A stretch of DNA of 64,000 nt from Planococcus sp. PAMC 21323. GTDB lineage: Bacteria > Bacillota > Bacilli > Bacillales_A > Planococcaceae. The position numbers were made by a program, and so were the translations under genes. This document shows positions 705 to 57,532 of this stretch, in pieces (within the stretch, counting starts at the first letter, position 1; every line of letters starts with the position of its first letter). The stretch spans positions 248,001 through 312,000 of the forward strand of contig NZ_CP009129.1 of assembly GCF_000785555.1 (NCBI RefSeq), given 5' to 3'. The notes under the pieces were generated by a model. The model did no database searches, was not told the DNA's origin, and was given only the letters and a program-made list of their open reading frames with translations.

Positions 705-731
705 GTTTAACTTTATTATTAGATTGGGTAC
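705..731 (+). promoter_or_regulatory. Sigma-B-like promoter of the candidate RNA
   Basis: GTTTAA at 705-710 and GGGTAC at 726-731 are 15 bases apart. The Bacillus sigma-B consensus is GTTTAA, 12-15 bases, GGGTAT, so only the last base deviates. A start about 7 bases downstream falls just before the first helix of the candidate RNA (743). A TATAAA at 734-739 could instead serve a sigma-A promoter. Confidence 0.45.
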
Positions 732-737
732 TATATA

Positions 738-1176
738 AATACAAGGCGGAATTACCGTTGAAAGACACGACTGGATTCGATTCAGAATCGCCTTTTAACG
801 AGAAACTGCACAGCCTTGGCGGGAAATTTGCTTTACTGACGATATTCACTCTTGTCAGGAACCATAGTTAATCAGGTTTCTATCCGGAAAGTGTTTCAAA
901 CAGTAAGTTGTAAGTTTTTTGTGGAAGTGCAATTGAAAGCCTGACTGCAGAACCAAAAAATTCACTGAGAAGTATATGTGAACCTAATTGCCTTATTGGC
1001 AAATGACAGTCAGTGTAACTAAACTGCAATGACGAGAGTTTCGTATTCGTCAGAGATTTTCAGTTTGTAGAAAGAATTTAATAAGATTTTCCGCGTGCAA
1101 AAGATCTCTCAGGATTTTCGAGAGATGGAAAAAGGAAGAGGCATGATCTGATGAAAAGGATCATGCTTTTTCCTTT
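738..1176 (+). ncRNA. Candidate structured non-coding RNA, about 440 nt
   Basis: No reading frame of useful length lies in this gap, but many complementary arms do. AAGGCG 743-748 pairs with CGCCTT 789-794, and CTGAC 836-840 with GTCAG 854-858. CTGACTG 941-947 pairs with 1007-1013 and encloses two hairpins (961-965/978-982 and 988-992/998-1002). AAACTG 1021-1026 pairs with 1061-1066 and encloses TGACGA 1030-1035 with 1047-1052. TTTTCC 1087-1092 pairs with 1127-1132 and encloses ATCTCTC 1104-1110 with 1120-1126. A terminator follows and a promoter-like pair precedes. It does not match what I remember of tmRNA, 6S, RNase P RNA, SRP RNA, T-boxes or common riboswitches. Boundaries and function are inferred. 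Confidence 0.5.
1131..1176 (+). terminator. Terminator of the candidate RNA
   Basis: GCATGATC 1141-1148 pairs with GATCATGC 1159-1166, followed by TTTTTCCTTT. The A-rich stretch before the stem can extend the pairing with the T-rich tail. Confidence 0.7.
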
Positions 1177-57045: not shown

Positions 57046-57077
57046 CAAAAAATGAGCTCTTCCGAAGAAGAGCTCAT
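57046..57077 (-). terminator. Terminator of the cold-shock gene
   Basis: ATGAGCTCTTC pairs with GAAGAGCTCAT, followed on the minus strand by TTTTTTG. Confidence 0.85.
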
Positions 57078-57095
57078 TGATAAGTTAGCTTTAGA

Positions 57096-57296
57096 TTAAG
57101 CTTTTTGTACGTTAGTAGCTTGAAGACCGCGTTGGCCTTGCTCGATATCAAACGTTACTTCTTGACCTTCGTCAAGTGATTTAAAGCCTTCGCTTTGGAT
57201 TGCAGAGAAATGTACGAATACATCGTCGCCGCCTTCGCGTTCGATGAAGCCAAATCCTTTTTCTGAGTTAAACCATTTTACTTTACCTTGTTCCAT
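57096..57296 (-). CDS. Cold-shock protein, CspA family
   Basis: A 66-residue single OB-fold protein that binds single-stranded RNA and DNA. RNP1 is KGFGFIE and RNP2 is VFVHFSAI. The length matches CspB/CspD of Bacillus. GAGGAGG lies seven bases before ATG 57296; the open frame continues 26 codons upstream, which is more likely the transcribed leader typical of csp mRNAs. Confidence 0.95.
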
Positions 57297-57532
57297 GTGT
57301 ATTTCCTCCTCGTATGCGTGAGCATACATTGTATTACTATCCTTGCTCAAATCTTGCAGATGAACATCTGACACTTCGTAAAAAGTTATCCGAACAAAAA
57401 TAATTCTTCCTTAGAATAACACGGGGTTACATATATTGCAAGGGAAAATGAAATATTCTTTTTGATATGGGTTAAATCAAACATGTATGATAATAAAAAA
57501 ACAATAGAAAAAGTACTGAGGAGGACAGAGAT

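Follow-up and report, generated by a model that had tools for sequence, protein, structure and literature searches.

The gap between two genes of Planococcus sp. PAMC 21323 probably encodes a stand-alone, trans-acting structured non-coding RNA that belongs to the sigma-B general stress regulon and founds a new RNA family; for this reading as a whole we estimate a probability of about 0.6. The window, i. e. the whole stretch of DNA that was analysed, comprises 64,000 nucleotides (positions 248,001 to 312,000 of contig NZ_CP009129.1), and all coordinates of the RNA given below refer to it. The components of this reading differ in strength. That a real structured non-coding RNA is present is virtually certain, and it is very likely that this RNA is non-coding and acts in trans; its regulation and its mode of action are discussed in their place.

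Large structured bacterial RNA families of unknown function are few, and the finding of such a family has often been followed by that of a new particle or biochemical activity. We know of no sigma-B promoter conserved along with the RNA in the families compared below. In the present case the promoter is conserved with the RNA across several genera of at least two families. Because a general-stress promoter is conserved together with the RNA, its function is directly testable. It also points to a sizeable RNA component, missing from Rfam 15, in the sigma-B regulons of many relatives of Bacillus. The finding is larger in extent than an initial annotation of this DNA had seen, as a pseudoknot core and a wide distribution beyond the genus are added.

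The locus and the predicted transcript

The gap (595-1254) is flanked by a pepF-like gene on the minus strand, which is partial because it is cut by the window edge, and by a gene for a hotdog thioesterase (4HBT) on the plus strand. The initial annotation had recognised a gene-free gap here with a non-coding RNA locus at 705-1176, and this agrees with our reading. However, it had placed the gap downstream of pepF, while the RNA is actually divergent from pepF and lies 5' of its start. A block of about 435 nt is conserved in alignments of relatives and is apparently non-coding; the element has one match in its own genome. The outer features are the following:

705..731, plus strand: sigma-B-type promoter GTTTAA-N15-GGGTAC (GTTTAA 705-710, GGGTAC 726-731), read directly
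738..1176, plus strand: predicted RNA with its start at about 738-741 and its end in the T run, as derived from promoter spacing and terminator position
1141..1176, plus strand: P12 terminator stem (1141-1148/1159-1166), followed by TTTTTCC

Judged by these elements, transcription would begin a few bases 5' of CAAGGC and end at the terminator. The 8-bp stem with T run that had been proposed as the terminator stands: 1141-1148/1159-1166 is paired in all 31 relatives aligned (100%), and five of its eight pairs are altered on both sides. A simple terminator scan of 560-1300 listed no terminator-like site at all, not even P12. The folding energy of 738-1178 is -131.5 kcal/mol compared to -103.35 for shuffled sequences (sd 5.68; z -4.96), and none of 100 shuffles was as low. 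Together with the covariation in the 31 relatives described below, this confirms that the structure exceeds what chance would give.

A sigma-B-type promoter conserved with the RNA

The GTTTAA/GGGTAC pair with its spacing of 15 bases fits what we take to be the B. subtilis sigma-B consensus. This promoter-like pair had already been noted before; it is borne out by direct reading and by its conservation. In the 60 bases preceding the motif ACAAGG, the strict form GTTTA-N13-17-GGGTA was found in 73 of 103 deduplicated copies of the RNA, compared to a mean of 0.11 and a maximum of 1 in 200 first-order Markov shuffles. A looser form was present in 85 of the 103 copies (Markov shuffles: mean 1.6, maximum 7). 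The distance is fixed in 60 of the 73 copies with the strict form, where GGGTA ends exactly 10 nt 5' of ACAAGG.

The motif alone proves nothing, because with spacers of 14-16 it is not more common in the own genome (26 sites) than a reversed control (32 sites). Seven of the 26 sites are one repeated sequence resembling 16S rDNA, and at least one site apparently lies inside a gene. For the 18 sites that remain besides that of this RNA, nine downstream proteins were checked against Pfam. Matches were obtained for seven of these, which include two YflT/DUF2382 stress proteins as well as a thioredoxin, a DUF948 protein and a baeRF-family protein. In B. subtilis, sigma-B controls the relatives of YflT, YtxG (DUF948) and thioredoxin.

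As expected for a member of the sigma-B regulon, a sigma-B-type promoter is thus found at the predicted transcript start (705-731). The own genome contains a sigma-B gene (TIGR02941, E 7.9e-122, over the cut-off), as do 252 of the 261 genomes of the order when the curated cut-off is applied. One genome that is 94% complete (G032) carries the RNA without a sigma-B gene over the cut-off. A joint loss of RNA and sigma-B was considered and rejected: the RNA occurs in one of the nine genomes below the cut-off compared to 116 of the 252 above it, and the Fisher p of 0.045, uncorrected for phylogeny, is too weak.

The initial annotation had called the RNA possibly stress-induced. The conservation of the promoter with the RNA and the presence of the sigma-B gene strengthen this part of the reading, and from the sequence we consider it quite probable that the RNA is sigma-B-dependent. 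The promoter would then be activated by sigma-B when cells are stressed or enter stationary phase.

Helices and their support by covariation

To describe the fold, a model of 94 pairs was drawn by hand from the window sequence and evaluated in an alignment of 31 sequences of the genus. It agrees partly with the RNAalifold prediction from the same alignment, which has 74 pairs, 23 of them altered on both sides in some sequence; in alignment columns 213-340 RNAalifold preferred some different pairs. The helices outside the long-range core are:

756..800, plus strand: P2/P3 hairpin (756-764/792-800, 768-770/788-790, 771-776/780-785)
836..858, plus strand: P6 hairpin (836-842/852-858)
859..879, plus strand: P7 hairpin (859-863/875-879)
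941..1013, plus strand: P8 domain (941-947/1007-1013, enclosing 961-965/978-982 and 990-992/998-1000)
1021..1066, plus strand: P9 (1021-1026/1061-1066) enclosing P10 (1030-1035/1047-1052)
1104..1126, plus strand: P11 hairpin (1104-1110/1120-1126)

In the 94-pair model, 89.8% of the cells are paired compared to 87.1% after shuffling. Changes on both sides affect 29 of the 94 pairs (shuffled mean 16.5) and 122 cells (50.7 in shuffles), and the covariation score is 0.181 compared to 0.138. Not one of 500 shuffles reached the observed value in any of these four measures. The opposite trend was seen for further pair types: there were 69, compared to 75.9 in the shuffles, of which 499 of 500 equalled or exceeded the observed number. 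When the pairing partners were slid by one to three columns, pairing fell from 89.8% to 34-43%; this control is biased in favour of the model, which derives from the sequence of the window itself. Hence the compensatory base changes across relatives that characterise a structured RNA family, and that had been proposed as a check on this RNA, are present.

P3, P8, P12 and part of P2 are best supported by covariation. P3 is 93.5% paired with five of seven pairs altered on both sides, and P2 is 78.1% paired with five of nine (both in 31 sequences). For P8 the values are 98.2% and five of seven, for P8a 87.7% and two of five. P6 is 98.2% paired and shows one-sided changes only. P7, P9, P10 and P11 are weaker, with 66-84% pairing. 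P9 is 78.8% paired, with one pair altered on both sides, and P10 84.3%. Although P11 reaches just 66.3% pairing in the MAFFT alignment, four of its seven pairs are altered on both sides. The weakest evidence among the hairpins is that for P7, which is 80.6% paired and has no both-sided change in the genus alignment. The two nested helices reported earlier (941-1013 and 1021-1066) can both be read in the sequence.

Across genera, RNAalifold on a MAFFT alignment left the 5' and 3' segments without a structure, and therefore folds of the single sequences were used. Four segments folded copy by copy gave mean z values of -2.29, -1.05, -1.37 and -5.84 (n=103, 98, 103 and 103), compared to -0.10 for control segments from upstream that were folded in the same way. 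In the 5' domain, to which the value of -2.29 from 103 copies belongs, most of 26 picked copies form a single hairpin.

The strands of P6 (836-858) and P10 (1030-1052) are nearly identical (CUGACGA/UUGUCAG and UGACGA/UCGUCA, respectively), and therefore they could swap partners or pair between two molecules. By pattern search, both patterns are present in 38 of the 103 copies, and swapping was not kept as part of the reading.

A predicted pseudoknot core

Three further helices were absent from the initial annotation: 742-747/813-818, 819-829/1084-1094 and, crossing these, 807-811/927-931. Their strands and an adjoining conserved block are:

742..747, plus strand: P1 5' strand CAAGGC, pairs with 813-818
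807..811, plus strand: P5 5' strand UGCAC (crossing helix), pairs with 927-931
813..818, plus strand: P1 3' strand GCCUUG, pairs with 742-747
819..829, plus strand: P4 5' strand GCGGGAAAUUU, pairs with 1084-1094
915..926, plus strand: near-invariant U-rich block UUUUUUGUGGAA, which adjoins the P5 3' strand, as seen in alignments
927..931, plus strand: P5 3' strand GUGCA, pairs with 807-811
1084..1094, plus strand: P4 3' strand AGAUUUUCCGC, pairs with 819-829

The complementarity of the core (CAAGGC/GCCUUG, CGGAAAA/UUUUCCG, UGCAC/GUGCA) is kept in nearly all of the 103 deduplicated copies, which come from several genera and were chosen partly by core motifs, as approximate versions of four anchor motifs were required. 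P1 is invariant in the 31 genus sequences; in the 103 copies a C-G pair has become U-G in six, and there is one A.G mismatch. P5 is likewise invariant in the genus, and all five pairs are kept in 98 of the 103 copies. One pair is broken in five copies, and at pair 1 two Gracilibacillus copies show the both-sided change from U-A to G-U. P4 is 100% paired in the 31 sequences, with seven pairs invariant, four varying on one side and none on both. Among the 103 copies its outermost G-C pair is kept in only 64% while the next seven pairs are kept in 99-100%, and an A-U pair is replaced by G-U in seven. As P1, P4 and P5 hardly vary, covariation supports these helices little.

The strands of the core follow each other in the order P1a-P5a-P1b-P4a-P5b-P4b. 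These long-range pairings suggest a core built as a chained pseudoknot, and from complementarity and conservation we infer that P1, P5 and P4 may adopt a kissing-loop topology. Via P5, the loop of the 5' hairpin would be joined to that of the long-range helix P4. The peripheral hairpins P2/P3 and P6-P11, which covariation supports to differing degrees, would surround this core. That the U-rich block could serve as the strand of a triple helix is an idea only.

Distribution among relatives

In a DNA search of 60 genomes, each of the 36 from the same genus, the own one among them, was matched but none of 24 others from the class, and the best matches in the other genomes of the genus were 71-97% identical. 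Among 200 genomes of the family, 75 matched, in five of 19 genera. With a covariance model (R1) for the 132 positions of the core, the RNA was found in 70 of 200 family genomes, in all 46 of the genus and in 117 of the 261 genomes of the order, two of these 117 (G075 and G141) being near 30 bits. A second model (R2) matched 24 of 398 genomes of the class, only one of them outside the family of the window; absence at class level is weak, because only eight candidates per genome were scored. In the family of this one genome, which contains Halolactibacillus, R2 matched 23 of 146 genomes, in 10 of 46 genera.

When named species genomes were scanned for a single exact motif of 19 bases, 111 stretches were obtained, part of which were checked by eye. 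The records belong to Planococcus, Planomicrobium, Sporosarcina, Psychrobacillus, Bhargavaea, Edaphobacillus, Filibacter and Indiicoccus, and further to Oceanobacillus, Ornithinibacillus, Gracilibacillus, Saliterribacillus, Halolactibacillus, Streptohalobacillus, Amphibacillus, Natronobacillus, Bacillus thermotolerans and Bacillus badius. Among these stretches, eight (L124, L153, L161, L164, L197, L212, L217 and L219) appear to be chance hits, lying in unrelated bacteria or genes. With the core model they scored 17.5-28.2 bits, compared to at least 54 bits for five true copies. Since three of them (L164, L161 and L219) nevertheless fell below E 0.001, model matches near 30 bits are insecure alone.

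Genomes have one to three matches, some of them in tandem; in Planococcus there is a single match per genome and a single locus type. Tandem copies about 410-470 bases apart were seen in L060, L064 and L069, which belong to a genus (g29) suggested by the named records to be Psychrobacillus. A second copy of the Psychrobacillus type (L076:1460-1620) is perhaps decaying, as its promoter and P1 5' strand look replaced. In copies of Bhargavaea and Edaphobacillus (L068, L072, L087, L189 and L208) the P4 5' strand and the U-rich block are separated by an insert of about 280 nt, and the insert-bearing copy of L087 contains internal repeats. A record labelled Arthrobacter holds two copies (L127 and L166), and its label looks wrong.

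A shortened relative was seen in G075 (L312:400-1100, minus strand). It has a near sigma-B promoter, ACAAGG, ACACCTTG, GGGGAATT/AATTTCCC and a terminator, and is without the U-rich block. The other three sampled genomes of this genus have neither a sigma-B gene over the cut-off nor the RNA.

Possible function and alternative explanations

The folded RNA would act as an RNA, most likely as a protein-binding scaffold or as a component of a ribonucleoprotein. This is an assignment by analogy, and given the rest of the reading we somewhat favour such a mode.

The main rival is a regulatory RNA which is induced by sigma-B and works chiefly through base pairing with mRNAs; its structure would provide stability and expose the seed. 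Sigma-B-dependent base-pairing RNAs occur in Gram-positive bacteria, and the conservation of the U-rich block (915-926) and of other loops would suit this mode of action. However, the most conserved blocks are largely occupied by the pairing of P1, P4 and P5, and both the size and the pseudoknotting would be unusual for the class. We regard a base-pairing regulator as unlikely. Pairing with rRNA was looked at separately and discarded: in one 6.5-kb rRNA-type stretch the longest exact complement was 11 nt, compared to 9-13 nt in 40 shuffles.

Within the genus, the position of the RNA could suggest a long cis-acting leader, i. e. a riboswitch or attenuator, of the thioesterase gene. In deduplicated loci, neighbours group by genus; the pepF-like gene lies upstream in 23 loci and the thioesterase gene downstream in 21, 3' of the RNA and on the same strand, and these loci are of the Planococcus type wherever inspected. 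The RNA also ends in a terminator stem, as a leader might. Elsewhere, however, other genes border the copies, and no common downstream gene, as a cis-acting leader would have in its own direction, exists across the 103 copies. Of these, 54 have their nearest downstream ORF on the same strand and 48 on the opposite one, and one has none; outside Planococcus (83 copies) the numbers are 35, 47 and one. Tandem copies also argue against a leader, as do one locus (L016) in which no thioesterase was found and three others (L033-L035) in which the gap spans 1.0-1.3 kb. On casual inspection, no alternative anti-terminator was noticed. Because the orientation of the neighbours differs among the copies, we rejected the leader reading, which appears very unlikely.

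If the RNA were the remnant or passenger of a mobile element and conserved merely by copying, this might account for the multiple and partly tandem matches and for the different loci in different genera. Yet no match was found by blastn in phage and plasmid collections, nor in IMG/VR by one exact motif, and the uniform single locus within the genus does not fit such an origin. Moreover, conserved promoter, covariation and terminator together speak for selection, and we give this explanation next to no weight.

A small-protein gene or dual-function RNA, to which 30 ORFs of at least 90 aa overlapping RNA copies might point (seven loci have a similar antisense one), is hardly credible, as among ORFs of at least 20 aa in six frames no stop column is common to more than 12 of the 31 genus sequences and the gap-run lengths of the alignment do not come in threes (421, 158 and 126 for remainders 1, 2 and 0 modulo 3); we read these long ORFs as by-products of the conserved sequence and rejected a protein-coding reading.

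Comparison with known RNA families

A stand-alone structured RNA under sigma-B control, which is the reading we prefer, has no counterpart in Rfam 15 (4227 families). In a search of the whole window no family matched at the RNA, and the only match was cspA at 57048-57445. A lenient scan of 400-1500 (E up to 5) gave only sub-threshold matches, all on the terminator hairpin. No match was obtained in ten 8-kb loci of relatives, and two relatives searched at E up to 5 again gave only sub-threshold matches. Rfam 15 includes 6S, tmRNA, RNase P, SRP, riboswitches, ROOL and GOLLD. The view that the RNA is undescribed and unlike tmRNA, 6S, RNase P, SRP or riboswitches, for which an Rfam search had been proposed as a check, therefore withstood this search in the window and in the relatives' loci. 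No title or abstract opening returned by our searches of open PMC papers describes the RNA. It is a new family without detectable relatives, within the broad kind of large structured bacterial RNAs, from which its conserved sigma-B promoter sets it apart.

Nearest in style are OLE and raiA/ModT. OLE RNA (RF01071) is also a large structured stand-alone bacterial RNA that occurs in Bacilli. A conserved sigma-B promoter like that of the RNA described here is not known to us for OLE, which comprises 616 positions compared to a length of about 435. OLE is reported to be tied to stress and to the binding of several proteins (PMC12286853).

OLE had no match in the window and none in the 261 genomes of the order (own included); the 14 controls were silent as well, though the same model matched 107 of the 146 genomes of the Halolactibacillus-containing family. 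In that family OLE is present in 11 of the 23 carriers of the RNA compared to 96 of the 123 non-carriers (Fisher p 0.0046, uncorrected for descent). One genus (g149) includes eight carriers of the RNA without OLE, three genomes with OLE and without the RNA, and none with both. The exclusion is not strict, because eleven genomes carry both, and the partly complementary distribution is only a lead.

OLE was not found in the order of the window, where the RNA is common, and in the other family the two tend to replace each other. For these reasons one could speculate that the RNA is the founder of a class of stress-built RNA machine that replaces the OLE ribonucleoprotein where OLE is absent; we consider this doubtful.

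The raiA motif or ModT RNA (RF03072) resembles our RNA in being pseudoknotted, stand-alone and linked to stress. The sizes differ, as it has about 200 nt, and no conserved sequence is shared over any threshold. It was not found in the window, nor in 61 genomes of the family, the latter result being weak since the controls were silent. Deletion of modT in C. difficile is reported to lower part of the sigma-B regulon (PMC11706538). By analogy, this may be taken as a functional echo and no more.

ROOL and GOLLD are reported to be large ornate RNAs of unknown function, and GOLLD to be encoded by prophages and phages and similar to ROOL (PMC12286853). In contrast to these, the RNA described here was not found in the phage, plasmid and IMG/VR collections, and it has no Rfam match. 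The sigma-B-dependent small RNAs of Listeria and Staphylococcus share the tie to sigma-B. They are described as regulatory small RNAs; our RNA is larger and more structured and has no Rfam family.

The cspA thermoregulator (RF01766) at 57048-57445 of the window lies on the minus strand, and its score of 78.7 bits is just above the gathering score of 78 bits.
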